From contig BDDD01000117.1 of assembly GCA_001972305.1 (NCBI GenBank), positions 620,001-684,000 of the forward strand: a stretch of DNA of 64,000 nucleotides, written 5' to 3'. The stretch is from Cephalotus follicularis (lineage: Eukaryota; Streptophyta; Magnoliopsida; Oxalidales; Cephalotaceae). A model generated the notes under the pieces. It was not told where the DNA came from. It ran no database searches and was given only the letters and a program-made list of their open reading frames with translations. Positions 1 through 63,170 of the stretch are shown piece by piece; the first letter of the stretch is position 1, and every line of letters starts with the position of its first letter. Made by a program: the position numbers and the translations under genes.

Positions 1-777
1 CAATCCAGAAATTAAGCTATAGAGGCATGTTGACGGCAGGCATATATAACGAATCAGTGGCTATATACTACTGTTTAACTATAACATCTATAATAATCCA
101 GAATGGGAAGCTTACCAGGAAGAATCAAAGCTTCAACTACCTTGAACCCTCTAACCTCAACATGCAAGCTCCAATAATTTCTCCAACACAATATCTCTCT
201 CTCCTAGTGTTTTCTAACACTCAGAATCCACTCATACGGCCTCTGTTATAAGGGAAATTGTATTCACAAATCCGTTTCAGTCATTAACTCATGTTTTCAG
301 CCTTTTCATGTCTCTCTCTTACATGCACTCCTTCCCTCCCTTTCTTTTCTGTTTTGCAGGTATAGTCACCCAAGAAACGCACTGAACACTCATGCATCAG
401 GGTTAGCAGCTGGTGACAAGTTTGTGTCACCTTTCCTTGTCATTTCTCCAACCAACACCTGTCCTAAATGAGGACACGCTGCTGCTCTGTTTCACATGCC
501 ATGCAGGACACCTGTCCGAGCATGATCAGTCGACTGTTACCCTGTAACAGTCGACTGTCCTTCCATGAATCAACCAGTCGACTGTTACCTAGGGCCAGTC
601 GGCTGTTAGGTGCTGATTCTGGTTCCTTAAGTTTATTTAAGGAATCCTCAATTTCATTCAATTCTAAACCCATCAACGTATATATCAATCATAATAATTG
701 GACACTAAAACTCAATATAATGTATATTTTATTCAACATTGTACAATATACATTAATTGAAAATTACGGTTATTACA
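1..777 (-). repeat. G1 3' LTR, partial
   Basis: This stretch is nearly identical to the end of the G1 5' LTR (about 8245-8980). It ends in TTATTACA next to the polypurine tract, so on the minus strand the LTR begins TGTAATAACC. The rest lies left of the window. It contains an array of CAGTCGACTG palindromes at 526-610. Short ORFs here are non-coding by context. Confidence 0.92.
526..610. repeat. TCGA-palindrome array in G1 3' LTR
   Basis: Three exact AGTCGACTGT cores and one AGTCGGCTGT variant lie within 85 bases. The same array is present in the other G1 LTR at 8726-8815. Function unknown; a protein-binding or silencing signal is possible. Confidence 0.85.
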
Positions 778-791
778 TTCTCCCCTCCTTC
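778..791 (-). other. G1 polypurine tract
   Basis: On the minus strand this reads GAAGGAGGGGAGAA and abuts the 3' LTR start TGTAATAACC. It would prime plus-strand DNA synthesis. The flanking sequence (AATTCGGGGACGAATTT) is shared with G2, confirming family identity. Confidence 0.9.
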
Positions 792-824
792 AAAAAAATT
801 CGTCCCCGAATTTAGCTTTTACAG

Positions 825-2309: not shown

Positions 2310-2315
2310 TAGCTT

Positions 2316-2822: not shown

Positions 2823-2858
2823 TGGTGTAGCAAGCTTCGAAAACCCTTTGATGAACCT

Positions 2859-3857
2859 TCAGTAGTAGCTAGCCAATCCCAAGAAGCTACGAACCTCAGT
2901 AACGGTCTTCGGTTGGGGCCAATCAACAATACTCTCAATCTTCGAAGGATCCACCGACAATTCTTCACTCGACACAATGTGACCAAGGAAGGTCACATGA
3001 TCCAACCAAAACTCACACTTACTGAATTTGGCGAATAACTGTTCCCTCCGCAATGTTTGCAACACAATCCTCAAATGCTGCATGTGCTCCTCAATACTCC
3101 TCGAATAAATTAGGATGACGTCTAAGAATATAACGACAAACTGATCAAGATAGGGCTGAAATACTCTGTTCATCAAACACATAAAGGTTGTAGGAGCATT
3201 CATCAAACCAAACGACAGTATTAGAAATTCATAGTGCCCATATCTGGTTCGAAATGCAGTCTTCTCCACATCACCTTCTCGGATCCTCAATTGATGATAA
3301 CCTGTCCACAGGTCAAGTTTGGAGAACACAGTTGAGCCTTGCAATTGGTCGAACAACTCCTCAATGTGTGGCAGAGGATACTTGTTCTTCACAATCACTT
3401 GATTCAGCAGTCTATAGTCAATACATAGCCGCAGCGATCCATCCTTCTTTTTCACAAATAAGAACGGTGCCCCCCACGGTGACACACTCGGTCTGATGAA
3501 GCCCTTATCAAGATAATCCTGTAATTGACTATTCAACTCCTTCAATTCCGCACGAGCCATTCGGTATGGAGCTTTAGAGATAGGATCTGTTCCCGGTAGC
3601 AATTCAATAGCAAACTCCATATCTCTCTCCGGTGGCAGTGAAACAAGATCATCTGGAAACACATCAGGAAATTGACAAGCAATAGGAACCTGATCCAGAC
3701 TATGCGTACCTTTGGTCTTGTCTACCACATAAGCAAGATATCGGTCACACCATTTCTCGAGGTACTTCCGTGCTCGAGTATAAGAAATGATCGGAGCAGA
3801 AACATTCTTCTCTCTGATGAACTTGAATACAGTTCCATCTGAAAGATGGAAAGCCAC
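2859..3857 (-). pseudogene. G1 reverse transcriptase
   Basis: A 332-codon open stretch covers the end of the protease linker and most of the Ty3/gypsy reverse transcriptase: [71 protein letters not shown] and FLGHIVS. The catalytic motif, normally F/YIDD, reads FLDV, which removes the second of its paired aspartates and should abolish polymerase activity. The frame then breaks before RNase H. Length and motif order match Tekay/Del. Confidence 0.94.
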
Positions 3858-3864
3858 CTCCTTG

Positions 3865-4336
3865 TTATAATAGTCAACGAACGCTCGATGAATATAGAGT
3901 CAGTCCATCCCCAAGATTACATCAAAATCTTGGATCAGAAGTACAATCATATTAGCACACAACTGGACCCCAGCTATCGTGATCTCACAATTATTCATTA
4001 TAGTCTCGGACAGTAAGCAAACACCAGCTAGAGGACTCACCTCCAGCATATAAGGTAAACAAGTAGTCACACCATGCAAGTTGCAAGCAAAATCGGATGC
4101 AATGAATGAATGTGTAGCACAAGGATCAATCAATACATGAGCTAATATGCCAGATTTGAAAATGGTACCTCCCACAACAGAAGTAGATTCTGGAACATCA
4201 TCTTTAGATAAGGTATAGACCATCCTTTAACAATCCCCTTTCCGGTATCCCTTCTCTGTTGAGCAGCCGCAACACTTGCACTAGCACCAACACTTCCCTG
4301 TTGGCCGCGTGCTTGATCCCTAATCATTGGACAACG
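3865..4336 (-). pseudogene. G1 aspartic protease
   Basis: The protease matures Gag-Pol. The block includes GGTIFKSGILAHVLID, then CATHSFIASDFA, and ends with DFDVILGMD, as in other Tekay-type proteases. The catalytic D-S/T-G triad is replaced by D-P-C, so activity is lost. It follows the two zinc knuckles of gag and is separated from RT by stops. Confidence 0.88.
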
Positions 4337-4339
4337 ATT

Positions 4340-5422
4340 CATTAGATGCTCTTGTGAGCCACATCTCAAGCATTTACCCATCTTTTTCCAGCAATCGTTT
4401 TCCTCATGGTTCTGGCGACCACATAAAGTACATCCTCCAGAATTCTGTTGGCTGCTTCGATTAGGAGTTCTTGATCATGAATTACTGCGTCGAGAACCTC
4501 CTTGACCCTGGTTGCCAAAGCTTGACGATTTCACAAGATTATTACTCCCCTGTCCCCGTGATTGTGCAGGCCTCGACTGATTAGCACTAGACCGCTCCAC
4601 CCTTCTTTCATTTTCATCGACCTCCATAATTCTCGCCCTTTCAGCAATATCTACAAAAGAAGTTAGCTACAACATTAACAATTTAGACCTGATGTCAGGT
4701 CCAAGGACTTTCAAAAACCTTTTGATCTTCCTCGATTCACCCTCCACAAGATAGGGTGTATGCCTTGCCAACTCCACAAATCGAGTCTGGTACTGAGCGA
4801 GCATGATGTCTACTTGACGTAACTCCATCAATTCGGTTTCCCTCCGGTCATGCTCCATCTGTGGAATATAAGCTACAAAGAACTCGGACTGGAATCTGTC
4901 CCAAGTCCTATCGAGATCACAAGATTCCCACTTTGCTTCAACCATCTCCCATAAATGAGTAGCTTCACCCCATAAGCGGTATACAGAAAAATTGAGCTTC
5001 TGTTCATCAGTACACCCCAAAGCAGCAAATATTTTTTCCATGTCTGTTATCCATTGTTCTACTACAGTAGCATCCAGTTCCCCCTTGAATAGTGGTGGAT
5101 TTTGTCTCATGAATCGCTCCAGATCTCTGCCAAATCCATCAGCATGATAAACCTCTGGAGCACGCTGATAGGCTTGGTTAGCCTCATACATCTGTCGTAT
5201 CTGTTGCATGTTTGCCGCATTGGCCTGTATGTGTTGTTGAAAGAAATCGGCCATACGATCAAAATTACTCCTTTCATCATGCACGTGCGGGACATTTACT
5301 CCTTCATTCATCTGTGGAATATCCCCTCCTTCATTCATTTGTGGAACATTTTCGTGCACTGGCGAGGCATTGACTTCTTCGTCTGCTCTACACCTTCCCC
5401 ATCAACCTCTTGGTAGATTCAT
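4340..5422 (-). pseudogene. G1 gag (capsid/nucleocapsid)
   Basis: Gag forms the virus-like particle and packages RNA. The capsid part is recognisable in a 230-codon frame (ERFMRQNPPLFKGELD, LWEMVEAKWES, QYQTRFVELARHTPYL). It is followed by a basic Ser/Gln-rich region and two CCHC zinc knuckles (CTLCGRQNHEENDC and CLRCGSQEHLMNRC). The N-terminus is degenerate: a possible ATG at 5420-5422 runs into a stop after a few codons. A short repeat gives two copies of PQMNEG near the N-terminus. Confidence 0.9.
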
Positions 5423-5549
5423 TCTGTTTCCTATAATGAAATATTATTAGTCATTAGGAAACAATCTTTAACTGTCAAGAACTTTCCTTATCGGAAACAA
5501 CTTAGTTAGTTGCTAAGGAACTTGTCCTAGCCAAGCATATATGGAATAT

Positions 5550-5561
5550 GCTCGGATACCA
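5550..5561 (-). other. G1 primer-binding site (tRNA-iMet type)
   Basis: On the minus strand TGGTATCCGAGC follows the 5' LTR end (TATGACA) after three bases. It differs by one base from TGGTATCAGAGC, the usual complement of initiator tRNA-Met used by many plant gypsy elements and found intact in G2. Confidence 0.9.
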
Positions 5562-6902
5562 TGTTGTCATACCCCATTATTGCAGACATTGACAACATAT
5601 AGATATGGTAAACAGTTAATAATCCAGCATTCATCAATCATCAACACTTTAATCAATTGCGGAAGCATTCCATAACCGGATTATAATAATTATTCGCACG
5701 CAGCCCATACTACGTGCTTACAAGTACAACATACGTTATAAATTACATGTCTGAATGTAAATATAACAAACGGAGTATGATCGTTATTACAATACAAATT
5801 GACATAGTAAATAACAACCTTACACAAAGCAGAAGCTCTCCTAAGCTTCAGCAGCTCTTGCCCAAGACCTTCATCAATATGAAATTGTAGGGGGTTAGCC
5901 TTTGTCCTCACACGGCTAAGTAGGAATAAAGCACGAGAATGAATATATAAATTAACATGCATGACCGTTTATTTTGAAAACTACATGTATATATATGTAT
6001 TCAATTATATATGATCAATCATGCCAAGTTGCCATAAATAGTACAATTCAAGAATACCGCACAAGGGTAAAATCAATCAATCAATCAATCAATGGGTGGG
6101 TGTCACATGTAGCTAACTCCTAGAACCAACAGCGCACCACCTAACTATCACCCTACACTCCGAGGATGATAGGTCAGGTAACAATTCTGACGGCATTTAG
6201 CGAGCAAGTAACAATGAAGATCTGCATTGCAGATAAGTTTGGTGGAAGCTCTAGTCAACTCCTGGCACATAGGACCACCCCCGTAGCCAGTGATGTCTCC
6301 TATCACTCAACTACCGGTAATAATCTTGGAAAAGCAATTCAATCAAGTCAATAACAATATTACATATATCTACATTATGCAATATAGTAGTATTTTTCTT
6401 TTAGAAACTTTTAACAATTCCTTGACCATACCTCTCTTTTGGAGGAAATGGTATCAATACAATAGTGGTTCTCTTGTGGAGAAGAAAACAATAGTGGTAC
6501 CGCTCATGGGAGGAAAAACAGTAAATCATTAACTGTAGGTTTCCATTTCGAAAACCATAACTTAAATCCTTATTTGTGCATATAGCACTTAGTCGGTTAA
6601 AATCCTTGAAAATAAGTGAAACATAGTATTTATGAACACTTGACAGATATACAATATCTATAACAGCAGCATCATACAACAGCATCACAATATAGACAAT
6701 AGCAATTCAAGGGTTCAAACAAAGGATCAAAAGCACAACCATAGTCAGTTATACACAATTCTCACAAGGAATGCAGAAGTCATTTAATTCCCAAAATGTA
6801 ACTACATATGGCAAGGATTGAGTGTTAGAATCATCCCATATGGTGGGCAATATGATTACATACAATTGAAGCCTAAACAGTACCTATTATCAACAAAGTA
6901 TC

Positions 6903-7025
6903 TCTTAACAGTCGGCTGTTCATAAGAATAGCCGGCTGTTTACATAAAGCAGTCGACTGGTTGTCCTTAACAGTCGTCTGTTTACATTGAGTAGTCGACT
7001 GTTAGGCTCAACAGTCAACTTTTTT
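6903..7025. repeat. TCGA-palindrome array, second cluster of G1 5' LTR
   Basis: About six units of the AGTCGACT type lie in 120 bases, including AGTCGGCTGT, AGCCGGCTGT, AGTCGTCTGT and AGTCAACT variants. Counted from the LTR start, and excluding S3, the offset is about 1.0-1.1 kb, close to the second cluster in LTRs B, D and G2. Confidence 0.82.
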
Positions 7026-7521
7026 GCCAAGAAAATCGACAGGCAATAACTAACAGGAACAGAGTATGCATGTTCACAATCCAATTCAAACCAATTAATA
7101 GCTTGTAATCATATAGCAACAATACATACATGATATACATACTATATCTTCAAAAACATGTCAATACCCCTACCTCAAATGCTATCCCAGAATCAAATTG
7201 AATTGCTTCCTCTCTTTAAGTTCCAACTTCAACTCAATCACCAACAATCCAGAAATTAAGCTATAGAGGCATGTTGACGGTAGGTAATGAAAGTGAATGT
7301 ATGTATGGCAACCTTTTAAACTAACAAACTATGTATGCGGAAAATACAAATTAAGCAATGAACATAAATAATCACACAAGAACAATTGAATAAAGAGTTA
7401 AGGGATAGAAGGAGTGCAAACAAATTTATAGTGGTTCGGCAAATCCGTGCCTACGTCCACTTTCTCAAGACCTCTTGAGTTTCCACTAGAATCCTCTAGC
7501 CACCTTTGATTTTCGGCTTAC

Positions 7522-7650
7522 GGGTGCAAATCAAACAAACCACCTTACAATTGATTTTGGGTTCCGGGTGCAAATCAAACAAACCACCTTACAATTGATT
7601 TTGGGTTCCGGGTGCAAATCAATCAAACACCTTATGAGGGTTCATTCCCC
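7522..7650. repeat. 44-bp tandem repeat in S3
   Basis: Units starting GGGTGCAAATCAAACAAACC begin at 7522, 7566 and 7610, the last one partial and diverged. This is a local duplication in the LTR. Confidence 0.85.
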
Positions 7651-7702: not shown

Positions 7703-8115
7703 CAAATGAAAGGCGTCGATGTCTTTTCTGGGAAATCTCCAGGTGCAGAGGCTTTGAGTGTCACGTCGATATCTTTCCTTGGAGTCGATGCTTTTTCTGG
7801 AAATAATGAAAATGGCGTCGATCTCTATTAAAAGGCGTCGATGTCTTTTACTTGGACGTCGATGTCTTTGTCTGAGGATCGATGTCTTTGAGTGCAATTC
7901 CATACAGTAGCTTCTGTCTTGAAAAGTGACTAAACGCGTCGATGTGTTCACTGAAGTAGTCGATGTCTTCTTGAATGTAGTCGACGTCTTCTGGAAGTAG
8001 TCGACTTTATTTGGTACGGACGTCGATGCCAATTGCTGGGAGGACGATGTCTTCCTTGCAGTTAATCCTGTACAAAAGACGTCGATGCTATTTGGAAGTA
8101 GTCGACTTCTTTTTC
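7703..8115. repeat. TCGA-palindrome array in S3
   Basis: About fifteen units of the GCGTCGATGTCTT / AGTCGACTTC type are spread over 410 bases, in the same relative place as the arrays of the S1 LTRs. Confidence 0.85.
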
Positions 8116-8725
8116 TGCAGATTGGTTTTAGGCTTGATATTCAACTTGTAATTCTTTGCACATCAAGTAAACAAGTTAAATGCAATTTGTAATCATTAAA
8201 ACATATGATTGAGACTTATCATCAATAAAGTCCCAACAGGTAAATAGAACGAATAAGTGGCCATATACTACTGTTTAACTATAACATCTACAATAATTCA
8301 GAATGGGAAGCTTACTAGAAAGAATCAAAGCTTCAACTACCTTGAACCCTCTAACCTCAACATGCAAGCTCCAATAATTTCTCCAGCACAATATCTCTCT
8401 CTCCTAGTGTTTTCTAACACTCAGAATCCACTCATACAGCCACTGTTATAAGGGAAATCGTATTCACAAATCCATTTTAGTCATTAACTCCTCTTTTCAG
8501 CCTTTTCCTGTCTCTCTCTTACATGCACTCCTTCTTCCCTCATTTTCTTTTCTATTTTACAGGTGTAGTCACCACAGAAATGCACTGAACACTCATGCAT
8601 CAGGGTTAGCAGTTGGTGACACGTGTGTGTCACCTTTCCTTGTCATTTCACCAACCAACACCTGTCATAAATGAGGACACGCCACTGCTCTGTTTCACAT
8701 GCCATGCAGGACACCTGTCCGAGCA

Positions 8726-8815
8726 CGACCAGTCGACTGTTACCCTGTGACAGTCGACTGTCCTTCCATGAATCAACCAGTCGACTGTTACCCAGGGACA
8801 GTCGACTGTTACGTG
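8726..8815. repeat. TCGA-palindrome array, first cluster of G1 5' LTR
   Basis: Four AGTCGACTGT units lie in 90 bases, matching 526-610 of the other LTR. It sits about 165-255 bases from the LTR start. Confidence 0.85.
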
Positions 8816-8980
8816 CATATTCTGGGTCCTTAAGTTTATTTAAGGAATCCTTAATTTCATTCAATTCTAAACCTATCAACGTACACATTACTCATAATAA
8901 TTGGACACTAAAACTCAATATAATGTATATTTTATTCAACATTGTACAATATACATTAATTGAAAATTACGGTTATTACA

Positions 8981-10084: not shown

Positions 10085-10450
10085 TTACGTTGAAAGCGGC
10101 GACGCTCTGCCTTAAGCGTCGGAGGTTATTGGCTAAGAGTCGATGCGCCGACACTTAGGCATAACCTTCCGCGCTTTAAGCGAATCTTCGTTCGCGTATG
10201 TCGCTATCATTTCAGCAACGCTTTATCTTAAGCATTGGCATTTACTGGCTAAGTGTTCACGCCACTGTCGATCCTTTGTGTAAACGTACTTCGCTTTAGA
10301 CAAAGCGCCATCGTCCAAATTACGAAGCGTCGTTGCCCACATCCTTAAGCGTCGATGCCTTACCTTAACCGCTGGCGCTTAACGCAAAAACCGTCAACGC
10401 TTAATCTCCAACAATCGACGCTTTACGCGAAACAGTAGACTGTTAGACAG
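10085..10450. repeat. TCGA-palindrome array inside X' leader
   Basis: About a dozen GCGTCGACGCTT-like units, many decayed (AAGCGTCGATGCC, ATCGACGCTTTACGC), fill 365 bases just downstream of the primer site. The X2 leader lacks this segment while matching on both sides, so the array is a presence/absence module outside an LTR. Confidence 0.8.
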
Positions 10451-22010: not shown

Positions 22011-22708
22011 TGTTGACGATTTAGTCTCAATCCTAGTTTTGATGATAACATATTTGCATTTAACAAGTTTACTTGATGTGCAAGATGTTACAAAGTTGTA
22101 CAAAAGTCAAAAAGTCATCTGCAGGGCAAAGACATCGACCTTCCAGAAATGACATCGACGTCCGTACAAAAAGACATCGATCCCTTCCAAGAAGACATCG
22201 ATGTCTTTAGTGCCAGAAGTTACAGGTCAAATTTTAATGAAGACATCGATCCCTACAAGCAAAGACATCGACGTCCGTACAAAAGACATCGATCCCTATC
22301 AGGAAGACATCGACGTCTTAAGGTGCCAACGTTACATGACAATTTCGAGTGATGACATCGATGCTTGTTCATGAAGACATCACGTCCATGAAAAGAAGTC
22401 GATCCCTTTCCATAGACGTCGATGCCTTTCTAGAGCTATCTGCAATTCCCAGAAAAGACATCGACCCCTACAGTAGAAGTCGATGTGATGCTCAAAGATT
22501 CAAATGCCTGGAGATTTCCCAGAAATGACATCGACGTGTTTTTAAAAGGATTGACCCGGGAAACATGGAACGGCTAGTAAACGCACTTCCAACGGCTAAC
22601 AACTATCAAAGACATCGATGCCTTTCTAAAGACATCGACGTATTTATATCAGCAGAGACAAAAGTCAAAGGTGCATCAACACATTTTTAAATCAAAAGCT
22701 TCCATGAA
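22011..22708 (+). repeat. S1 5' LTR, truncated
   Basis: Begins TGTTGACGATTTAG and matches the 3' LTR up to AAGCTTCCATGAA, where pol sequence begins. The lost part includes the TATA box found in the 3' LTR, so this LTR has no visible promoter. It lacks one array unit present in the 3' LTR. Confidence 0.92.
22120..22660. repeat. TCGA-palindrome array in S1 5' LTR
   Basis: About twenty units of the AAGACATCGATGTCTT type fill 540 bases; a perfect 16-base palindrome is at 22192-22207. Many units have one good half (GACATCGATCCCT, GACATCGACGTCC). Confidence 0.88.
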
Positions 22709-23169: not shown

Positions 23170-23410
23170 AAAAACACGTCGACTTCTTTTCTGCAAAATT
23201 CTATGTTTTATGAAATCACATCGATCTCTTTCACAAAACATCGATTTCTTTAAAACACGTCGACTTCTTTTCAAAAGCGTCGATGCTTTTCAAAATGCAG
23301 GGTTTTCTGAATCGATTTCTTTCGTTCTTTTAAAGAACGCGTTGACGTCTTTAGAATAACGTCGATGTCTTTAACCCAGAAATCGACTTCTTCATAAAAA
23401 CGTCGATCTC
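23170..23410. repeat. TCGA-palindrome array in the S1 spacer between pol and second coding region
   Basis: About ten units (ACACGTCGACTTCTTTT, GCGTCGATGCTTTTC, ATCGATTTCTTT, ACGTCGATGTCTTTA) fill 240 bases outside the LTRs, directly after the pol stop. Confidence 0.83.
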
Positions 23411-24333
23411 ATGCTCATTTCACACTTTAACCCTATTCTGAGCATTTCAAAAAAATTTCTACTCTCTCCATTTTTCTTCAAAAATCGTTCTATTAGTTCA
23501 AAAACAATCTTCCGAATCCTTCCTCAACATCAAAAACCTTTTTCATCTCCTCCAATCAAACTATTTTTGTCATTCTCAGTATCTTTCTATTGTGCTCACC
23601 AAGTGTTTGATAATATGGTTAGGTCAAAACAAGTTGCCCATAAAAAGGCTGCATCATCTTCCCAGCCTAAGAAATTTGCTAAAAGGCAGAGGCTTGACAT
23701 TAGGGAGCCTTCCCCTGACCCTGCTCTACAATCGGACTCCGAATCCGAAGAGCAAATTCCACTATGAAATGTAGTTTTTGTAGATAAACGGGTTATGGGT
23801 GGTAGGAACATCGATTTGGATTTCTGTTCCTCTGAGTTTTCATTTGTTTCTTGGTTGGATGATCTTCACCTTCTTCCTCTTGTACAAATCCAGGACCCTT
23901 TTTATATAAATTTGGTCAAGGAGTTCTATACAAATCTTAGGATTGTATCCAGCCCTAATGAGGAGTTTGCTCCCTCCTCTACTGTCAAAGGGCAACGTAT
24001 CTATCTAGATGTAGGATTCTAGCCTCTATCCTCCATATTCCACACACCGGCTTATACATTTTTGAGCATAAAAAATGGCCGAAGGTTGAGGGTTTTCACC
24101 CTAATCAAATTTTGTCTATTCTATACCCAAATGATCCAAACATACATCCTAATATGGCACTGAGTACAAACAGATTGTCAGTTGACCATAGGCTACTCCA
24201 CCATCTCATTGTGCATCAATTTCTTCCCACCGGTGGTGGGTATGCCAAGCTATCCCGAATGCAAGCATTCCTTATGTGGTGCATTCTATCTAAGATCGAA
24301 TTTTGTTTTCCCCTTCTCATGCTCAAAACTATG

Positions 24334-25453
24334 TGATGGAATCGGATAAACCGACTCCGGTGCCAAAATGGACATAGGGTGTAAAAGTGTATAATAAAAT
24401 TTTTAACAATCAAACATGCAGCGGAATAAAACCCTATATAACAAAATCAAGTCCATACAGGCACGTCCACAGATCCCATGGATCACCACAACATCAACAT
24501 AATTGAATAAGTGTCACCATTGCATCCAATGGTGACACATAAACATGGCAAGAAGAAGAGGGGGCCAAAAGGTTATACCAGTGGGTGTTGGCTCCTTCGT
24601 TCTTTGCCGCTACAAGCTTGAGTAGAATCCCTTTGGTCTTCTCCAAGCTTTAGGTACAACAGAGAATCCAACCAGCAAACTCCAAGAGCTTAGAACTCTC
24701 TCTCTCTCTCACTTAGCTTAGAAAAAGAGTATTGATTATGACCAATGAAGTCAGTAATCAATCCACACTAGATAAGCCTTGCTTGGTGTATATGAGTCAA
24801 GAGAACACACACTTGCAGAGAGAATTTCGTAGCCAGATTGCCCAGCAAAATTTCTCACAAAACCACACCCTTTCTCTCTTCTGCAGAAATGCTTATTATA
24901 CTAGCCACTAATCCTCTCTCTCAATCTCCCATTCACTTAGGATCATGGCCTTCACTCCCTAGGAATCCGAAGCCATGATTCCCACGTTTCCAAAACGTGC
25001 AAGAACGGGAGCTGGATACTGGAAAGGAGGGAGAGATCGTGCCCACGATTTGAGCTCGTGCACAGGTTGCACGTTCTGCTCAAAGACGTCGACTCCTTCA
25101 AAAAGACGTCGACTCCTTTAGATCGTGGCACAAAAGCGCATCGATGCTTTCTGAAAGACAACGATGCCTTTATCAAAGAAACACATCGACGTCTTTCTAA
25201 AAGACGTCGACGCCTTCTGGCCAGTCAAGCCCAGTCTCACAGCCTCCATGCCAGGCATCCAACCTTATGTCGGGGCATCACTAGTATAAGTAGGTAATAA
25301 AATAAACTACTTCAATTATGTGATAGAATACAAGTGATATAGCCATAACAAATTTAGCACACATCATATATACAAGGAATAAGATTGTTTTATACAAGAT
25401 AAGATACAATGTGACAACCCATCTAATGGCTTGTCGGGTCACTATATCTAACA
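24334..25453 (-). mobile_element. C3: solo LTR inside S1
   Basis: An 1120-base insertion is flanked by perfect CTATG duplications (24329-24333 and 25454-25458). It begins TGATGGAATCGG and ends ATATCTAACA. On the minus strand it begins TGTTAGATATAGTGACCCG, and the first 200 bases resemble the X' LTR start, so it is a shorter relative of the X family. It carries a small TCGA-palindrome array. Confidence 0.92.
25080..25220. repeat. TCGA-palindrome array in C3
   Basis: Six units (AAGACGTCGACTCCTT twice, GCATCGATGCTTTC, ACATCGACGTCTTTC, AAGACGTCGACGCCTT, and the variant ACAACGATGCCTTT) lie in 140 bases. Confidence 0.85.
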
Positions 25454-26834: not shown

Positions 26835-27385
26835 GACCAAAGACATCGACCTTCCAGAAATGACATCGACGTCCGTACAAAAAGACATCGATCCCTTCCA
26901 AGAAGACATCGACGTCTTTAGTGCCAGAAGTTACAGGTCAAATTTTAATGAAGACATCGATCCCTACAAGCAAAGACATCGACGTCCATACAAAAGACAT
27001 CGATCCCTATCAGGAAGACATCGACGTCTTAAGGTGCCAAAGTTACAGGACAATTTCGAGTGATGACATCGATGCTTGTTCACGAAGACATCGACGTCCA
27101 TGCAAAGAAGTCGATCCCTTTCCATAGACATCGACGCCTTTCTAGAGCTATCTGTAATTCCCAGAAAAGACATCGACCCCTACAGTAGAAGTCGATGTGA
27201 TGCTCAAAGATTCAAATGCCTGGAGATTTCCCAGAAATGACATCGACGCCTTTAAAAAGACATCGACATCTTTTTAAAAGGATTGACCCGGGAAACATGG
27301 AACGGCTAGTAAACGCATTTCCAACGGCTAACAACTATCGAAGACATCGACGCCTTTCTAAAGACATCGACGTCTTTATATCAGC
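26835..27385. repeat. TCGA-palindrome array in S1 3' LTR
   Basis: More than twenty units of the AAGACATCGACGTCTT type. Compared with 22527-22550, the segment 27238-27282 has one extra unit of about 20 bases, so unit number has changed since the two LTRs were identical. Confidence 0.88.
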
Positions 27386-27469
27386 AGAGACAAAATTCAA
27401 AGGTGCATCAACACATTTTTAAATCAAAAGCTTCCATGAATTATGCAACGGCTACAAATCTTTTATGCC

Positions 27470-27477
27470 TATAAAAG
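27470..27477 (+). promoter_or_regulatory. TATA box of S1 3' LTR
   Basis: TATAAAAG lies about 85 bases after the palindrome array and 750 after the LTR start. It is the best core-promoter candidate. The array therefore lies immediately upstream of the promoter. Confidence 0.65.
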
Positions 27478-28011
27478 GAAGACTCAAACCTCAGAAGAAA
27501 ACACAGAACTACATCAATTCAACAAGAATTACACAACATCAAGAGAGATATCATATTCAAGCATTCTATTGCCAAAAAGCTCAAAGTGCTCTACAATGTT
27601 CTAAAAGGCTTCTAAGCTTTATCTTTTGAGTTTTCCTGAGTGTTTCACATTGTGATCTGTATTAGCCATATCAAACCTATTTGAGAGGTTATCTTGTAAA
27701 CACTTTCACAAAGTACTTGTAAAAGAGGAGAATCCTCTAAGGTCTTGAGGTCAAGGTCTTGTGATTGAGGTCAATCACGAAATAGTAAGGTGTAATGAAT
27801 TGCTGCCTTAATCAATTCGAGATAGTGGAAACTCAAGGAGCTCCCTTGGGAAAAGTGGACGTAGGCAAGAGTTAGCCGAACCACTCTAAATTCGGAGAAG
27901 TTTTTCTTTCCCTTCACTCTTTAAATTTAAAGTTTTTAAATTCCCGATATTTACATCAATATTCAATTCACCCCCCCTCTTGTGTATTGCAAGAATGTTT
28001 ATTTCACCTAG

Positions 28012-29559: not shown

Positions 29560-29790
29560 AAACTGGCCTAAGCGTCAACGTCTAGAATCAAAGCATCGAC
29601 GCCAAGGGATGCATTTGCACGCGTAAAAGACATGCACAAAAAGCGTCGATGCCAAGCGATAGCGTCAACGTCAAGCGATAGCGTCAACGTCAAGCGATAG
29701 CGTCGACGCCAATGAGTGAAAATAGTATAGGTGCTGACGCTATAGCTAAGCGTCGACGCTTTAGCTAAGCGTCGACGCTTAATGGCGAAT
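29560..29790. repeat. TCGA-palindrome array 1 in G2 3' LTR, with 19-20 bp tandem repeats
   Basis: Perfect AAGCGTCGACGCTT palindromes are at 29748-29761 and 29767-29780. AAGCGATAGCGTCAACGTC-like units are repeated in tandem between about 29655 and 29710. Confidence 0.87.
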
Positions 29791-30539
29791 CTCAGTCACG
29801 TTTGAACACTGACATAAACATGTGCAAGGGGGCAGATAAAGGCCACCTTTCGGGCCCCTTAACATGCATTTTGAGACGTGTTATGCATGCACCATGATTC
29901 CTTGACTTTCCATGACTGAAATGAAAGAGAGAACAGGCCAGGTGTGTGCATGCAACAACAACTATAGGGAGAGAGACACCTGGTGCGCCATGCAACCAAG
30001 TGGGAAGAAAGGGTTAGGCCTGGACATGCATGTACGGGGGGAAAGGAAAAGAGCAGAGAAAATGTGCATAAAATGCATAGTTTCATCCTCATCAAAAGAG
30101 ACCTAAGAATGAAGAGAAAAGAGAATTAGAGAGAAACACTGTAAAAACTAGAGGGAAAAGAAGGAGATAAAGAGAGACTAAACCTCCATTTTTGGACCAA
30201 GCTTGGAGCTTGGAGTGAACTTGGATTGGAGCTACTGTCGCCGAACCTGGGAGCTCAAATTACTGGAAAAAAATCTTAAAGAGGTGGACTTTCAATTCCT
30301 AGCTTGGAATCAAAGGTAGGGGATTTATACATGCAAATTTGAGTTCAAAGTTAGTGTATGGCCATTAATGAAATGAATGAATTGCATAATTGTTATGGAT
30401 TGATTAGACTGTGTGATTTATGCCATGGTCACCTTGATATGTAAATTGTCCATGCATGTCATATTCTATGTGAATATCGAACTAGATTGCATGTATGATT
30501 GGTTGGATCCTACTGGTTTTGCGTTGAAACGAAGAAGAC

Positions 30540-30845
30540 GATGTTCTGAACTCTAGAACCGTCGACGCTCACAAAGGAAGCCTCGACGCTTTAACTGTCA
30601 TTCATAGAATTGATGCTAGTTTCATGATAAACGTCGACGTCTAAGGTTCCTACCTTAAAGCGTGGATGCCTGAAGTAAAAAGTTGGCGCTTAAGGTCCCA
30701 TGCCTTGAGCGTCGACGCCTAAAGAGTTGGATATCGACGCCTTAAGACTACTGTAAAGCACTGATGTTATGGAATTGAGCGTTGACTCTTACAGAACATA
30801 AGCGTCGATGCCTATAAGTTAAACGTCAATGCTTAAGGCATTGTT
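30540..30845. repeat. TCGA-palindrome array 2 in G2 3' LTR
   Basis: About ten units (ACCGTCGACGCTCAC, AACGTCGACGTCTAAG, GAGCGTCGACGCCTAA, AAGCGTCGATGCCTA), several decayed to GTTGAC or GTCAAT. Confidence 0.84.
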
Positions 30846-40082: not shown

Positions 40083-41260
40083 TGTTGATTTGGTGATCTT
40101 GTGTAACCTTTATAAGGATGAATATAGAATGGATAAGCTCACAACAATAACTCAAGATAACACTTGCTGATAACAACTATAAAGCTCTTGAAAGAATCTT
40201 GATATGAATGATTGTAGTGTTGGTTGTTGTATTCGTTGTTCTCTACTTTGTTGTTGATCCAATCCTCCTATTTATACTGTCTTGTAGGATATATCAGTTG
40301 GAGACGTCACAGAGCCGTTGGAATCAATTTGGAAAAGATTGCCTTTAATTCAATGTTGATAAGATATGACAGATTGCAATCCTTAGATCAAAGCGTCGAT
40401 AGGTTCTATCAAAGCATCGCCGCTTAGATGTTACCATTATGCCTTAAATTGAATTTTCCCGTTTTGAGCTTCGATGGTTTGGCAATTTCAACCATGAGCT
40501 TTGTAAAGCGTTGATGGTCTTTTTGTAATCATCGATGCTTAGAGCCTTTGAGCAACTTCCAAACTCTTTGCATTAAGGCGCTGACATAGCCTTCTTAACC
40601 GCTGGCTCCTTTTGTCATCGCTTTTCACATTTGATTTGCCTCCGAGGTCTGACAATTCATCTATGATGCTTAGTACATTTGCTTTGCCTTCGAGGTCTGC
40701 TCTGCAACATTTACCTCAGGTCTGCTCTATAACATTTATAGCAGGTTTGCTCTGCAACAACTAACGGAGGTCTGCTCTGTATGCTTTGATGTATGACTTT
40801 GAGCTTAGAGCTCTGACCTCTGCCATCTCTACCTTTGACCTCTTTCTCTGAGGTCTGCCTTGACTTCGGAGCTCTGGCTTCAACTACCCAACCTTTGCCT
40901 TAGCTTCTGAGGTTTGCCACAGAGGTCTGCCTTGACTTTGGAGCTCTTCCTTCACTTGTGAGGTCTGCAACTGATGTATGCCTTGACGTCTGAGGTCTGG
41001 CTTTAATTTCCTGAGGTCTTCCTTAACGTCTGAGGTCTACACCTTAATTTTTTAAGGTTTGCCTTGGCATCTGAGGTCTGCACCTTAATACATCCTTTGC
41101 CTGAATGTCAACTTTGTCAACTTGCATGATGTACAATCAGTGAACTTGAGACCAGGTCCTTTGCCTGAATTTAAACTTTGTCAACTTTCACATTAACTAA
41201 AAATGATTAGTTGCAAATATGCTATCATCAAAATCTAGGACTGAGACAAAAATGTCAACA
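40083..41260 (-). repeat. S2 5' LTR
   Basis: On the minus strand starts TGTTGACATTTTTGTCTC, very close to the S1 LTR start. Contains the TATA box (40269-40276), a sparse TCGA array and the GAGGTCTGC repeats. The 3' end is set at the last CA before the primer site. Confidence 0.8.
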
Positions 41261-41550: not shown

Positions 41551-42284
41551 TGTGAGCCCCATATATCTTTTTGTATACATATTGGCATGTATTTTGCTTG
41601 TATCTATATGGTATTGTACAGTATTGTACTTATGGATGGCATGAAACGCATATTATATATACTATTTTTAACTTTTATGCATGTTTATGAGTAGGGGAGG
41701 TTCAGTGGAACCTACTCGCTGTTTGTGAGATTTTCGCATGGAGGAGCCTATTATATATATAGAAGGCTCAGTTCATTCTCATTCGTCCTCATTTCCTTAG
41801 AGTGAGATAGAGAGAGAATGAGTTAGAGAGAGAGTGGGCGAAATCAAGCAAACAAGTAGACGTTGGAATCGTAGCAGCATATAGAACCTGAAGGGAGAAG
41901 CAGGATACGGATTCAAGCAACCTATTCTTCGTTCTCAACTAGTTAAGGTAGGTTATACTTATGCTCCGATATCCTTATATGGATGGATTTGTATGTTTTT
42001 ATTGTTATGGACAGTTGCATATATGCTAGATGGATGGACTAGGGTGATTGATATGGTTATAAATGGATTAAAAGGTGGATTTGAGGGAAATCAGAGGATT
42101 TGGAGATTTTTACCCAATTCCCATTTTTCTCTCAATCTAAGGGTTATAGACATGGTTTTAAAGGGTTTTAAAGCTGTTTTTGAGTTTCTATTGACGGTTG
42201 AAGCCTGTGGCTTCCTTTGTTTTGAATTAAAAACAGTTTTGATGGATTTTGGGGGATTTTTGGGCGATTTTTACAGTTGACAGT

Positions 42285-42600
42285 AGCCTAGGGCATCAAT
42301 GTGTTCTTCGTGCATGTTGATGTGTTCTTGAGTGCCAGGGCGTCGATGTTTTTGACTTAAGCGTTAACGCCTAGGTGTCTTTGCGTTGTGCGCCATTCTG
42401 TGCAGCACGTTAATGCCATAAAGGTAAGGGACATAAGCATCGACGCCTTTGGTAAGCATTGACGTCTTATGTGTTACCAGTAGTTGACACTTAGCGCATG
42501 CATTGACGCTCAAGGCCTAGTGATTTAAGCCTCGACGCCTAGTGCAAAGCGTTGACACACAGAATTTAGGCTCGACGCGTAAACCCTGCACGCCAATGCC
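42285..42600. repeat. TCGA-palindrome array in Z
   Basis: About twelve units (GGCGTCGATGTTTTTG, AAGCATCGACGCCTTTG, AAGCATTGACGTCTTATG, AGGCTCGACGCGTAA), many decayed to TTGAC. Confidence 0.78.
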
Positions 42601-43970: not shown

Positions 43971-46823
43971 TGTAACACCCCCGGACGGCGGGAGTCGTCA
44001 CAGGTCATAATACAGAACCTATCAAAACATATCATAACATATCTGAATATAAACATAACTTATCAGCCAAAACGTGGCGGTCATATCATAACTGAAACTT
44101 TAAAACTTAACAATTAAGCGTTTTCGGAAAGACTTAAACATAATCAAGTTCCAAATTTAAAACGTAAAAACATAAGCATCAATGTTTATGGTTGCTAGAC
44201 ATAAAAACACAAGGATCACACTCCTAGGGATCCAAAGACATAGGGTGGTCATCTCTCGTTCACACATTTTCCCGCTGCTCCCGATAACCTGCCGCATGGA
44301 AACAAAAACGCGGCTGAGCAAACCTCAGTACGGATAAGGGAAAATAAAACAGTAAATGATAAGTTTAAAAGCAGTAAGATTTCAATAAAATCCATAACAG
44401 AAATCTTAAGCAATTAAAACAATTTAATCATATTCAAAACCAATTTCATATCTTTCGAAACATTTACGAAACATTTTAAAATCATCATCCCATAATTCAT
44501 AGAATCATACTAAGCCACATACATATCACATTTCATATCATATATTGGCAAGGGAGGCGCTAATTCCACATGCCCACTAGAATTAAAGTGTACGGCACTA
44601 CACAAGTCAATTCTCACATATCACATATCAGATCATTCACCATATCACATATCATATGCTAGAATCGATTCATACGCCTCTACCATATATAGCGGATCCA
44701 TAAATCCACCTCATGGGATTTATTCATAACACTCAGAGGCGCTGTAGACTAATCACAACGCTACGGAAGTGTCATGTCCCCGTGCCAGGACTACGACATG
44801 CCTATGGTACGCCCCATAGGTGGGTACAATACTCAGTATCCAATCTTTTCGAAAATATTGATTTATCAAAATCAATTTAATATCACATAAATATGCTTTC
44901 ACAAAACATATTGGGAACCGCTCACAACGGTATCATAACATACATTTCATAACCAAATCATCAACTCATTTATACTTCGCTATAAAGAGGTGATCATAAC
45001 ATATCGTATCATTTCGTATCATATAAATAAAGTCGGAAGCATTTATAATGTCAAAACCAACTTCATTTTCGAAACACGTCCAAAACCATAAAATATTTCC
45101 AAATTCATAAACGAAGAAGCATAGCATAAAGCAAAACTGTTTTCAGTTCGAAAATCAGATAGCCAAGGAAACGATAGAAATCCGTACATTATTCATAAAG
45201 TAAAACAATCTTTTATTTACTACAGTAAAACCGATAGGAGGGTATCAAGGAACGAAGATCCGTACCTTATGCGTTCACAATGAACTTACGGATAGAAGGT
45301 TTAAAACAAACTCCTCCTTGAAGCACAACAATCTAAAAGACACCCAAAATCATTCATATAAGAGTCTAAGACACATCAGAAGCATTAAACAGACTCATTA
45401 CTGTGTTTGGAAAAGACTCGGATCGATTCGAGGAACAAACGAATCAAAACAGTTGAAAACAACACTTTCCTCGACAAAACAGTCGACTGTTACAGAGCAC
45501 CAGCCGACTGGGGAAGCTTGGCAGTCGACTAATCACAAAGTCCAGCCGACTACTCAAACCAGAATGCAGGCAGTCGACTATCACTTATATCCAGTTGACT
45601 ACACAACACAAAGCAGTCGACTGTCTTCATATGGCAGTTGACTACTCATCCAATCCAGCCGACTGTCCACAAGAACAGACGACTGTTCTGGAAGACAGAA
45701 CAACGGCAACATGACAATGTGATACAGAAATCGGTTAAAGTGAGTACAATATTATACTAGTGACACAAGGACATAATTGTATGACTATATATGACATTTA
45801 GGTGACATGAAAACACAAAATTGACATAGGAATATCTGGACAATGGCTTAACTTTCAAGGGAAAGCAAGAAGAACATGCATACATATTTGTCCATATTTC
45901 TGTCCATTATTATTTACAGATGTTATAACCAGATTACCATTTATGTGAGCGTCTAAAGACTGACCAATTGGTTTAGAACGATAATGCTAACATGGCCTGA
46001 ATTGACAGGAAACCAAATATCTTCTAACAACCTATTTAGTATGAATACAATGTGACCAAGTGAAATAAACCATCACAGCAGGATTCACTAACCTGTAATG
46101 GTGTTGGAAACACAGAAAACAGCAGAAGGAACACTACAACACAATCACAATCGGCTGCACACAGGGACAAAAGTAAACCAACAAGGAGATACATAATATG
46201 CTTAACAAAACAGAGGAATTCAACCCAAAAACCAAAGGAATTGAGATTACCTCTGTAACGATTTCACAAGGATTAAACAGACTCCAACAATGCAGATTCG
46301 GCAGTGGCACATAACAGAAAAAAAAAGGGAGACACATATAAGATGGTAATGTCACTCTCCAAAAGGGAAAGGAGAAGACAAAATATGCCCACATATGGAA
46401 GAAGAGGAGACAAGAATCGGCTGAATGAGGAAAGGGGAGATTGAAGACGTGTGGAATTTATGAGGGGAAGGAGTGAGTTCGGATGAAGAGAAGAGAAGAA
46501 AAGGAAACAAAGAAAGAAGGAAAGAAAGAAAGAAGGAAAGAAAAAGAAAAGAAATTTGGTAAAATAAATAAAATGAAATAGTAGGATTTTAAAAAAAATA
46601 AAAAGGAATTGTTTTCATAAAAATAAAATTTTGATTAAATAAAATAAACCCAACCCAACATTGCATTACATATCCAAAAATTCAGGCTGGTATCAGACAA
46701 CCCAAATCACATAGGCCCAAAACGAAAGGGCAACCGGACCTTAAAATTTAAAACAGAATTAAAAAGCCCGAAACCAAACACCTAAAAGTTCGTAAAACAC
46801 ATACGAACAAGCAGGGTATTACA
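43971..46823 (-). mobile_element. N: solo LTR inside Z
   Basis: A 2853-base insertion starts TGTAACACCCCCGG and ends GGGTATTACA, flanked by perfect TTTGA duplications (43966-43970 and 46824-46828). On the minus strand it begins TGTAATACCC, like the G2 LTR. No internal region. Contains a CAGTCGACTG array and simple AAAGAAAGG repeats near 46500-46560. Confidence 0.94.
45475..45695. repeat. TCGA-palindrome array in N
   Basis: About eleven AGTCGACT units in 220 bases, with a perfect AACAGTCGACTGTT at 45478-45491 and variants AGCCGACT and AGTTGACT. Confidence 0.87.
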
Positions 46824-56899: not shown

Positions 56900-57030
56900 A
56901 TGCTAAACCGTCGACACCTAATGCCATACTGTCGACGCTTTGAGGTTGGACACGTGTGTAGGGCGTGCAGTTGAAGGCTGAGTTTTGATGCACAAACTGT
57001 CGACGCCAGAGAGAAACTGTCGATGCTTTG
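56900..57030. repeat. TCGA-palindrome array 1 in D
   Basis: Units AACCGTCGACACCTAA, TACTGTCGACGCTTTG, AACTGTCGACGCCAG and AACTGTCGATGCTTTG lie in 130 bases. Arms mix the CAGTCGAC and GCGTCGAC types. Confidence 0.84.
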
Positions 57031-57964: not shown

Positions 57965-58140
57965 GAACGCCAAAAGCACCGGCGCTTAGGTTCAAACTGT
58001 CGACTCTTTGGTGTGTAAATATCGCATTGTAAGGCTTAGAATGTCGACGCTTTATGCTTTGATAGTGTGTCCAGTGTCAACGCTTAATCTCCAACCATCG
58101 ACGCTTAAATTGAAACTGTCGACACTTTAGAGCAGTAATT
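57965..58140. repeat. TCGA-palindrome array 2 in D
   Basis: Units AACTGTCGACTCTTTG, AATGTCGACGCTTTATG, AGTGTCAACGCTTAA, ACCATCGACGCTTAAA and AACTGTCGACACTTTAG lie in 175 bases. Confidence 0.84.
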
Positions 58141-59727: not shown

Positions 59728-59880
59728 TGTCACACCCCACCTTACCATACCCAATAGGCACAAGTATATATGGTGATATCAAAAAATAAAACATAATATT
59801 CCAGCATTCCATACAACAATTCATCAACAGTATGCGGAAGCATTCAGTAAGCCAGAATATCAAATACAAGTCATCCGCAA

Positions 59881-62271
59881 TGTCACACCCCGTTGTTTCC
59901 AATCACGTACAATGGACAAGCATATGCGGTGATATCAGAAATAAGCATAAAATAATATTCCAGCAACAATTCTTAAATAAAATTTGCGGAAGCATTCGAT
60001 AAGGCGGAATATAATACTAGTCATCTGCACGTATCCCAAACGACGTGCAGGCATACCAACAATTATCCTTACATAAAAGGAAGTACAATACAAACACGGG
60101 ATGTGATCCGTTCGATTACAATACAATACGACATAAGAAAAAAAAACAACCTTAAATGACAAAAGAAGCTCTCGAAGCTTCAACGGCACTCTCCAAGGTC
60201 TTTGCTTAATCTGAAATTGTAGGGGTTAGCCGTTGTCCTCACTTGGCTAAGTAGGAAGATAATGCATGATAAGGAATATATGAAAGCAACATGTATGACA
60301 GTTTATATCAAAATAACATTTAAATGAGCCAATATATAAGCAATCATGCCGAATGGCCATAAACAATACATATGCAATAATACCACACAAGGGTACAATC
60401 AATTCATCCATCAATTGGGTGTCACATGTCGCTAACTCCTAGCACCAACTGTGCACACCTATCAATCACCCTATGCTCCGAGGATGAAAGATCAGGTAAC
60501 AATTACTACCGGCGTTGGCGGGTAGTTTAACAATAAAATCTGCAATGCAGACACAGTTAGGAGATGCTCTGGCCAACTCCTGGCACCCAGGATCAAATCC
60601 ATAGTCAGTGACGTCCTCCATCACTCGGCTACGGCAAGCATAGACAATCAATTCAATCAATTCAGTTCAATAATATTACATATATCAGCAATATGCAATA
60701 TAAAAGTTGTTTTCTGTAAAAACATATAACAATCATTTATCGTACATCTCTTCGGAGGAAAACGATCTCAATTCAATAGTGGTTTCCAGTTTGGGAAACA
60801 AAACAGTAGGTACCTCTCATTTAGGAGGAAAATTAGTAGTTCATTTGGCAATAATCATTTATTTGAAAATGATAGTTGGTATCATAAATTGAGTACATAA
60901 CTCATAGTTGGTTTCAATCATTGAAATACAAATGGTAGTGGTGTTAGAATACACCAAACAGTTTATTTTTAATATGACAGTAGCATATTCAGTAACAAGA
61001 TCACAAATCAGTAGTTCTTGTAATAATAGTGTTCATTTGAAAATGATGTTTAAAACCATGAGTTATGCATATGGCACATAGTTCGTTTGATCGTTGCAAT
61101 ATAAGTAGTAGCGATGTTAAATAACATCAATAAGTATATACTATATGGTGGCAGCATATACAATTCAATAACAGTACCAACAGTAACAATTCAATCAATA
61201 TTATGCAATTTCTGCCCAGAACAGTCGGCTGCCCTCAATATCAATCTATGTAAGCATGTTTATAGACTCATGCATTAGTACCAGTAGGTTTCAATAGTTA
61301 CTTGTAACAATTACAATTCCAATAGTAGCTTAATCATCAAGTGTTCTAAGTCTTAACTCCCCTTCTCAATTTCCTTTTGAATCTTATGTCAAGTATCATT
61401 AAATCTCGGATTCATGGACCTTTAACTTGTTTGACAGTAGGTATATACATACTTAGGAACCATTAAGCATATATCCTATCACTAACAACAATTAAAATCC
61501 ATTCTAGAGGTTATAATCACCAATTCCACTTGCTCCAATTCAGTACTTTCCATTTCGATTCTAAGAATTGTTGATTCAAATCCATTAACAGAAGATATTC
61601 TATATTCTCCTAGTCATTTTATCATCATAATTGCAGAGAATTTCGGATTGAGAACTTACCAAGTGACCAAAGCTTCAAAGGTTCCTTCTTTGAGTTCTCC
61701 AAATCCTACCAATGCAAGCTCCAATAATCCCTCTCTTCACTTAGTGTTTTTTCTAACTCTCTTACACCATTCAACATCTGATATAAGTCTCAAAGACTTA
61801 TGAATTCGTCAGATTCCTACCCTACTCACACGCACTCACACTTTACTCTCTTTTCTTTCCATCATATGCATTCCTCTCTTCACTTTTCTTTCATTAAATA
61901 TCAATTTGTAGGTTGTAGGTCTGCAGAGAACATGCAAACATTCACCTTTGCATGTTCTGGCAGATGGTGAAACGCATGTGCCCCCTACCCACCTGTCATT
62001 CTTGTCCCTGCACATGCCAGGAATCTGTCCTCGGCAATTCCAGTCGACTGCCTTCATCATGTGGCAAACAGTCGACTGTTGCCCTGTGACAGTCGACTGT
62101 TTGAGCTGGTTTAGGGTTTTCCAATCTTGATACTTCTCCAATTGCACATCCAATCATCCCAAGCAATTACGAGTCATAGAAATTAATATAATTGGACAAA
62201 TAACTCAATTAAAATGTATATTTTATTTCAAAATTTGATCAATATACATTAATTGAATTGCGGTTATTACA
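59881..62271 (-). mobile_element. B: solo LTR inside A, same superfamily
   Basis: A 2391-base insertion from TGTCACACCCCGTTG to CGGTTATTACA, flanked by CGCAA (59876-59880) and CGCAC (62272-62276). On the minus strand it begins TGTAATAACCG. No internal region. An array of three AGTCGACTG units lies at 62040-62100, and a single AGTCGGCTGC at 61223. Confidence 0.9.
62036..62105. repeat. TCGA-palindrome array in B
   Basis: Three units in 70 bases, with a perfect AACAGTCGACTGTT at 62067-62080. Offset from the LTR start is about 166-235. Confidence 0.85.
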
Positions 62272-63049
62272 CGCACGCAACCCATACTACGTGCAGGCAT
62301 AAACCAACAATTACCGTTACATAAGGAACGTACAACAGAGTACGGGGTATGAACCGTTCATTACAATATAGTACAACATCAAAAAATAACAACCTTAAAT
62401 CGAAAACAGAAGCTCTCCAAGCTTCAGCAGCAATCTCCCAGTCTTCGCTTAATCTGAAATTGTAGGGGTTAGCCGTTGTCCTCACTTGGCTAAGTAGGAA
62501 GATAATGCATGCTAAGGAATATATGGATGCAACATGTTTGACAGTTTATATTTCAAAATATCATTTAAGTATGCCAATATATAAGCAATCATGCCAAGTG
62601 GCCATAGACAATACAATGCAAGAATACCGCACAAGGGTACAATCAATTCATACTGTGGTTTGGGTGTCACATGTCCATATATATATATAATATGCAATAT
62701 TAAGGGTTTTCTTTAGAAACATATAACAATTCAGTGATCGTACATCCCATAAGAGGAAAACGATATCAATACAATAGTGGTTTCCAATTGGGAAATAAAA
62801 CAGTAGGTACCTCTCATAGGAGGAAAATCAGTAGTTCGTTTAGCAATAATCTTTCATTTGAAATGATAGTTAATATCATAAATTGTTCATATAGCACATA
62901 GTTTGTTCAATCTGTGTAAATATGAAATCAATAGGGTTTGTAACAGTCACTAGTATATACCAATTAACAGTAGCATATACAGAAACAATATCAAAACAGT
63001 AGCAATTCAAATTAAGGCCAAACAGGTCCTATATCAGAACTTTAACCCA

Positions 63050-63170
63050 GGACAGTCGGCTGTTCTCAAGAACAGTCGGCTGTTTTGGTTGAGCAGTCGA
63101 CTGTTTTCCCTTGACAGTCGACTGGATGCATTGAGTTGTCGACTGTCATGAAGAACAGTCGACTACTCCT
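63050..63170. repeat. TCGA-palindrome array in A
   Basis: Six units (AGTCGGCTGTT twice, AGTCGACTGTT, AGTCGACTGG, TGTCGACTGTC, AGTCGACTAC) lie in 120 bases. Confidence 0.85.

Follow-up and report, generated by a model that had tools for sequence, protein, structure and literature searches.

The window analysed here is a 64-kb stretch of the Cephalotus follicularis genome (assembly GCA_001972305.1, contig BDDD01000117.1, positions 620,001 to 684,000 of the forward strand), in which the non-coding DNA of long terminal repeat (LTR) retrotransposons holds dense arrays of short palindromes, many of them centred on TCGA. A sequence-only reading had described these as one TCGA design common to copia and gypsy elements. 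In this study, we report that at least two motif classes are present, AARRCRTCGAYGYYTT (class 1) and ACAGYCGRCTGT (class 2), that class 1 is indeed present in both copia and gypsy elements, and that two sister gypsy elements differ in the class of both their arrays. With a confidence only a little above even, we propose that dimeric factors, at least two in number and probably encoded by the host, would bind the arrays cooperatively, most likely as activators. The arrays and associated features of the window, with open reading frames abbreviated as ORFs, are as follows.

530..602, minus strand (taken from the neighbouring ORFs): class-2 array of 4 sites in gypsy LTR 37-777, the gypsy ORFs being on the minus strand
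6912..7018, no strand assigned: class-2 array of 6 sites, homologue of the second N array
7716..8105, minus strand: class-1 array of 11 sites, an inverted homologue of the S2-type LTR array
8733..8805, minus strand: class-2 array of 4 sites in the partner LTR 8237-8980, 93% identical to LTR 37-777
10352..10439, no strand assigned: weak mixed group of 4 sites (loose threshold)
22135..22638, plus strand: class-1 array of 15 sites in the S2-type LTR copy 22011-22708
23179..23406, plus strand: class-1 array of 9 sites, whose L008 homologue lies in non-coding DNA shortly 3' of a copia RVT_2 ORF
25089..25210, no strand assigned: class-1 array of 6 sites, homologue of the L012 LTR array
26846..27370, plus strand: class-1 array of 17 sites in a second S2-type LTR copy, aligned from 26722
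27469..27478, plus strand: TATA-like box CTATAAAAGG, located about 95 bp 3' of the S2-type array and present also after the homologous arrays of L004, L008 and L025
29421..32046, plus strand: long LTR of gypsy element D, following an integrase with SH3_Tf2-1 and a sub-threshold chromodomain match
29575..29775, plus strand: array 1 of the D LTR, class 1, with 8 class-1 and 0 class-2 sites (loose threshold)
30538..30829, plus strand: array 2 of the D LTR, class 1, with 11 class-1 sites and 1 class-2 site (loose threshold)
40396..40535, no strand assigned: class-1 array of 4 sites in the C3-type LTR copy 40141-41260
42277..42535, no strand assigned: degenerate array of 6 sites, mostly class 1
45483..45682, no strand assigned: class-2 array of 6 sites
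56911..57023, no strand assigned: weak class-1 group of 3 sites (loose threshold)
57979..58122, no strand assigned: mixed or degenerate array of 5 sites
62044..62096, minus strand: array 1 of the N LTR, class 2, 3 sites
63056..63162, minus strand: array 2 of the N LTR, class 2, 5 sites

All results rest on one genome, of 1,577,397,061 bases (1.58 Gb). For the reverse transcriptase of the window, the best among the 120 relatives listed, out of 8000 scored, reached at most 68% identity, and those with a name came from plants. Loci other than the window are numbered L001 onwards; L005-L024 are twenty arbitrary 10-kb stretches of the genome, including 5,774 N, and L025-L029 are held-out stretches, obtained once the motifs were already fixed. 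Under a mixed-class rule, the window and L001-L024 together yielded 56 arrays in 19 homology groups, the groups being set by BLAST at chosen thresholds.

The window contained 100 perfect palindromes of at least 10 bp, 27 of which were centred on TCGA; dinucleotide shuffling, repeated 100 times, gave an expectation of 2.67 and never more than 8. Raising the minimum length to 14 bp left 7 TCGA-centred palindromes against 0.24 expected (shuffle maximum 2). The 15 other centres were at chance level or slightly higher, the largest excesses being those of ATAT (14, with 7.2 expected and a shuffle maximum of 13) and AATT (16, with 9.9 expected). In L005-L024, by unshuffled count, TCGA ranked behind only TATA and ATAT as a centre of palindromes of at least 10 bp (44, 68 and 56, respectively, the latter two including AT repeats), and its commonest 10-mers were CAGTCGACTG (12), GCGTCGACGC (11) and ACATCGATGT (6). 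Genome-wide, the class-2 palindrome AACAGTCGACTGTT had 11,812 exact copies, and the same letters reversed had 25. All five palindromes quoted in the sequence-only reading were found exactly where it had placed them, so that the arrays it described are real.

Across the window and L005-L024, 307 class-1 sites fell into 38 arrays and 83 class-2 sites into 12, while 50 dinucleotide shuffles of the same DNA gave means of 28 and 16 sites and zero arrays. Both classes thus exceeded dinucleotide-shuffled sequence, and the excess was repeated in the held-out DNA, in which 50 class-1 sites were found against 5.5 (maximum 13) and 18 class-2 sites against 3.2 (maximum 9) in 100 shuffles; among the held-out stretches, L027 had zero sites and L028 two isolated sites per class. 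Permuted palindromes, 200 per class, gave on average 0.26 (class 1) and 0.30 (class 2) arrays. Moreover, a survey made without a prior motif returned 13 6-mers recurring at 18-23 bp in at least 10 places, 12 of which were fragments of the class-1 or class-2 motifs, the thirteenth being ATAAAA.

Class-1 arrays were assigned to copia in L005, where an LTR pair flanks a copia gag ORF, in L012, where an LTR and leader lie ahead of copia gag-pol ORFs, and in L008, where an array at 9629-9775 follows shortly 3' of a copia RVT_2 ORF. The gypsy hosts were D, with its SH3_Tf2-1 and sub-threshold chromodomain matches, and L029, with ORFs from gag to integrase; S2 had no diagnostic ORF of its own in the window. 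The earlier count of nine distinct LTRs proved too high, because LTR sequence is common to several of them and some arrays are placed elsewhere than in an LTR, in the leader (L012 5101-5332, after a primer-binding-like site) or 3' of pol, although several families do carry them. The stated avoidance of coding blocks was borne out: ORFs with Pfam matches (27 in 10 records, 3 of them below the curated cut-off) cover 21.4 kb and contain two sites of each class, whereas the other 128.6 kb of those records contain 243 class-1 and 67 class-2 sites. S2-type arrays stop 95-102 bp upstream of the box CTATAAAAGG in the window, L004, L008 and L025, and this box was missing in 25 of the 29 loci; in L005 and L012, arrays were judged by eye to lie upstream of a TATA box.

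Several other features were observed in or near these LTRs. The C3-type LTR (35700-36100 and 40690-41090 of the window) carries another short-period array, of AGGTCTG-like units with periods of 19-51 bp, which is not palindromic in the manner of the TCGA arrays, and further motif types in LTRs are possible. A direct repeat of ACGGCT lies within the S2-type array region (window 22568-22600, L005 6662-6697, L008 7045-7080), and in 4 places ACGGCTA is repeated at a distance of 18-23 bp. A 44-bp tandem repeat of 2.9 copies at 7506-7634 of the window resembles by eye the L005 LTR near 6240-6330. ORFs near array-bearing LTRs match PF20167, a putative plant transposon protein (window 23962-24336 and 37007-37429, below the curated cut-off; L019 728-1960, above it), and these are perhaps non-autonomous LTR elements.

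Within arrays, the spacing and composition of the sites were distinctive. TCGA-TCGA distances in the window and L005-L024 peaked at 19-22 bp, reaching 9.5 times expectation for 19-23 bp (not de-duplicated), with none at 23 bp and with additional peaks at 41-43 and 61-64 bp. Such a profile was absent for all 15 other palindromic tetramers in the same DNA; the rare CGCG and GCGC were in excess at a number of distances, reaching 13.4 times expectation at 15-18 bp (not de-duplicated). Arm complementarity was 0.41-0.63 across seven positions in the 175 non-redundant TCGA contexts that had a neighbour 18-23 or 40-44 bp away; in the remaining TCGA contexts it was 0.25-0.32. The pooled profile, whose symmetry is built in by construction through the merging of both strands, holds at most 0.13 bits per position outside the arms. 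With one arm mismatch allowed, class-1 arms enclosed TCGA in 93 of 162 sites, followed by TTGA (10) and TCAA (4), and class-2 arms (110 sites) enclosed TCGA (22), TCGG (10) and CCGA (8).

Comparison of 119 neighbouring pairs gave arm similarities of 0.598 and 0.561 (between arrays, 0.467 and 0.441) and spacer similarities of 0.351 and 0.282 (between arrays, 0.286 and 0.271); the spacers of different arrays were alike at background level. Some duplication thus exists, yet it is the motif that persists, the arms being similar and the spacers hardly so. Changes at the outer CpGs of CGTCGACG that retained C(-2)/G(+5) outnumbered those that lost it by 55:13 in non-redundant contexts (114:14 in all), while the same comparison around five other centres gave 36:34 (all contexts, not de-duplicated). 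Simple CpG decay was rejected on this ground, the class-1 changes being asymmetric and those at the control centres symmetric. Class-1 positions -1 and +4 varied independently.

With homologous pairs removed, the strongest period in class-1 distances was 10.25 bp. The phase test used half the main-peak distance as its period and, with the 21-bp peak set aside, counted spacings between nearest neighbours as in phase if they fell no more than a quarter turn from a whole number; 70 of 93 class-1 spacings were in phase (z 5.3), and 54 of 78 under stricter de-duplication (z 4.4), with two other settings giving 86/118 (z 5.9) and 73/102 (z 4.8). By counts that were not de-duplicated, there were 24 three-turn spacings (29-33 bp), spread over 18 places, compared with 6 of 24-28 bp and 1 of 34-38 bp, and five-turn spacings (49-53 bp) numbered 19, against 10 at 45-48 bp and 4 at 54-58 bp, six of these ten being 48s from S2-type arrays. 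Class-1 centres thus favour integer helical turns, odd multiples included (about 21, 31, 42 and 51 bp), a spacing that would suit a grammar of proteins sharing one face of the DNA rather than small-RNA targets.

A signal acting in RNA was also considered, in which the palindromes would form hairpins, let the element RNA dimerise or be targeted by small RNAs, the last having been among the earlier suggestions. The arrays do lie in regions expected within the genomic RNA, and one piece of an S2 array folded better than 100 shuffles, with z of -4.6 in the sense and -7.6 in the antisense direction. That the antisense folds better than the sense speaks against RNA hairpins, as do the imperfect sense-strand pairs, which were A.C in 134 and G.U in 55 cases in 13 arrays of inferred orientation, and 47 and 43 once four S2-type rows were removed. 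Since odd helical turns are populated, which would be meaningless for 21-nt RNAs, and the spacers are unmatched, small-RNA targets and a 21-nt phase are likewise disfavoured, and we regard an RNA-level signal of any of these kinds as the least probable of the explanations weighed here.

The relation between class and element was examined in D-type gypsy LTRs, which carry two arrays about 0.8-1.2 kb apart (more in L023, owing to an insertion). Both arrays are class 1 in D, L015, L017 and L029, and both are class 2 in L023, L030, L031 and the N-type LTRs of the window and L001, L023 and L030 being the two LTRs of one element. Class was therefore concordant in all nine gypsy LTRs (8 elements) in which both arrays were recognised, 4 of class 1 and 5 of class 2; at the loose threshold, each array contained 0-2 sites of the opposite class. 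This count leaves out one-array LTRs such as 37-777, 8237-8980 and L026, includes L031 and L001 as assigned through short matches, and makes no use of L021 and L013, whose class labels are less certain. The stretch between the two arrays of L023 that is absent from its partner L030 spans about 2.7 kb (3224-5944).

D and L030 are sisters, with 84.9% integrase identity and a split from five other sequences at a bootstrap of 91, and either is less similar (74-78%) to the class-1 pair L029/L017. In spite of this, when the arrays of D and L023 were cut out at the points where the BLAST alignment ended, these segments were 0.534 and 0.541 identical, which is the shuffled level, whereas their flanks were 76-81% identical. 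The LTR between the arrays still aligned in part (D 30112-30508 with L030 6403-6796, 71%), with no alignment to L030 for D 29861-30111, so that a single conversion tract over both arrays is a poor explanation. These comparisons suggest that an element may be able to change its factor through replacement of its arrays. Because the G1 lineage is also class 2, at least two class changes are required on the gypsy tree, their direction not being fixed.

The convergent acquisition put forward earlier is upheld by these changes in part only. Its companion argument, that shared descent is unlikely, holds against descent from one captured segment, since the spacers of different arrays are at background level and the copia and gypsy arrays fell into separate BLAST homology groups at the thresholds used; class 1 may nevertheless have a deep common ancestry.

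Sites common to several families and lying in non-coding DNA are also what would be seen if a host factor used the palindromes to target the elements for silencing. Elements would then be expected to lose their sites, while the sisters keep full arrays of either class and a single motif reaches 11,812 copies, and we consider such silencing highly improbable.

A protein of the VANC type, encoded by element or host, which binds non-coding arrays and removes methylation, is another candidate. According to two reports, VANC target arrays in Arabidopsis VANDAL transposons consist of dense short motifs in non-coding element DNA, and the motif type differs between close relatives, with the units changing together (PMC5735166, PMC10398659). 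The present arrays likewise are dense and occur in U3, leader and post-pol non-coding DNA with few sites in Pfam-matched ORFs, and both arrays of close relatives differ in class, a concerted change represented here by one sister pair and nine LTRs, which would then reflect a change of partner. VANDALs are, by contrast, DNA transposons with a VANC gene of their own, whereas LTR elements are concerned here; one class spans two superfamilies, while the described VANCs target certain VANDAL families together with their related copies; and VANC21 motifs face the same way along the array, the main text of PMC5735166 nowhere using the word 'palindrome', whereas the present motifs are palindromic and those of class 1 helically phased. 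The arrays in the leader and after pol leave room for an anti-silencing role of this kind, which we judge unlikely.

The reading we favour is that the arrays may be docking platforms at the DNA level, each palindrome being bound by a symmetric protein dimer, with adjacent dimers tending to lie whole helical turns apart on one DNA face and binding cooperatively. A dimeric DNA-binding factor is the part of the earlier proposal of a host-recognised signal that best stands, because the helical phasing, the arm complementarity and the wholesale class difference between sisters fit it. At least two factors would be involved, one reading AARRCRTCGAYGYYTT and another ACAGYCGRCTGT; these would act in trans and are most likely host-encoded, because copia and gypsy elements with non-aligning arrays share class 1. 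They would most likely activate LTR transcription, as the S2-type arrays end about 100 bp upstream of a TATA box, and elements would retain and multiply the sites for a gain in expression and switch factor by array replacement.

Several observations weigh against this reading. The layout of array and TATA box in the window, L004, L008 and L025 is that of one related LTR group, the fifth locus with CTATAAAAGG, L014, has its box not downstream of an array, and the arrays in the 5' leader and after pol occupy other positions altogether. L025 was not counted as a copia host, its copia ORF being on the strand opposite its LTR. Class 2 shows the 21-bp step without clear odd-turn phasing: its best period was 7.0 bp, and its phase test gave 12/21 (z 2.2) and 12/19 (z 2.6) at the strict threshold and 13/28 (z -0.1) and 13/25 (z 0.4) at the loose one. 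A few permuted control palindromes also gave arrays, three reaching 27, 14 and 11, of which the top two (ARRACRTC, 27, and GACAYC, 14) also match class-1 half-sites, e.g. AAGACATC. Finally, the left-spacer similarity of neighbours was about 3.6 standard deviations above the between-array value, and true duplications occur inside some arrays, such as the 112-bp period in S2. The last two points are those that would be left by an old tandem-repeat segment without function, inherited or exchanged among LTRs and then drifted. Arms that are alike beside spacers that hardly are, the 10.25-bp phasing with its three-turn spacings in 18 places, the non-random loss at the outer CpGs, and the sisters' class difference in both arrays across a partly aligned LTR all argue against such drift, and we find it improbable.

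The CBF/DREB (CRT/DRE) site is RYCGAC, which GTCGAC and GCCGAC fit. As the reader of class 1 it was rejected, since 37 of 205 sites are ATCGAT, without RYCGAC, against 37.6 expected by independence. For class 2, such a reader would restrict the cores to TCGA, CCGA and TCGG; the cores of 114 class-2 sites were TCGA (43), CCGA (19), TCGG (16), CCGG (2) and others (34). In published work, MCIRE is noted as having a CRT/DRE motif, and the U3 of Rider, which cold did not activate, as having a CBF-binding domain (PMC5059998, PMC6762207).

Among the open-literature papers listed for the exact palindrome sequences, none dealt with retrotransposons by title, and among those listed by several further searches none resembled the present system by title and the opening of the abstract. 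The earlier remark that no described system of this kind was known does not stand as written, similar ones being the VANC target arrays and the heat elements of ONSEN type. In ONSEN and other Brassicaceae COPIA elements, clusters of heat-responsive elements in LTRs are reported to have evolved repeatedly in separate families (PMC5059998). The present arrays are similarly clusters of a short putative binding site in LTRs, but with up to 17 sites per array and in gypsy as well as copia elements, and the HSF motif nGAAn/nTTCn does not match the repeated units AARRCRTCGAYGYYTT and ACAGYCGRCTGT. In the Tnt1 superfamily of Solanaceae, U3 is described as changing as a module while RNase H stays similar (PMC1838419); neither 'tandem' nor 'palindrom' appears in its main text, whereas here two separated arrays differ together.

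More broadly, and more tentatively, two rival dimeric proteins might serve LTR retrotransposons of two superfamilies through a shared code of phased palindromes, with elements switching between them by rebuilding every array; this would be an arms-race or market signal, for anti-silencing or activation, at genome scale, likened to VANC but common to many retrotransposon families. We hold this wider scheme to be possible rather than probable.

If the factors are real, unrelated retrotransposons of one genome would be seen tapping the same regulator, and the arrays would be a natural record of regulator change among close relatives. The motif, the spacing rule and the matched sister pair of D and L023/L030 make the idea directly testable. 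Additionally, with 11,812 copies of one class-2 palindrome in the C. follicularis genome, transposons may titrate the factors that read them.

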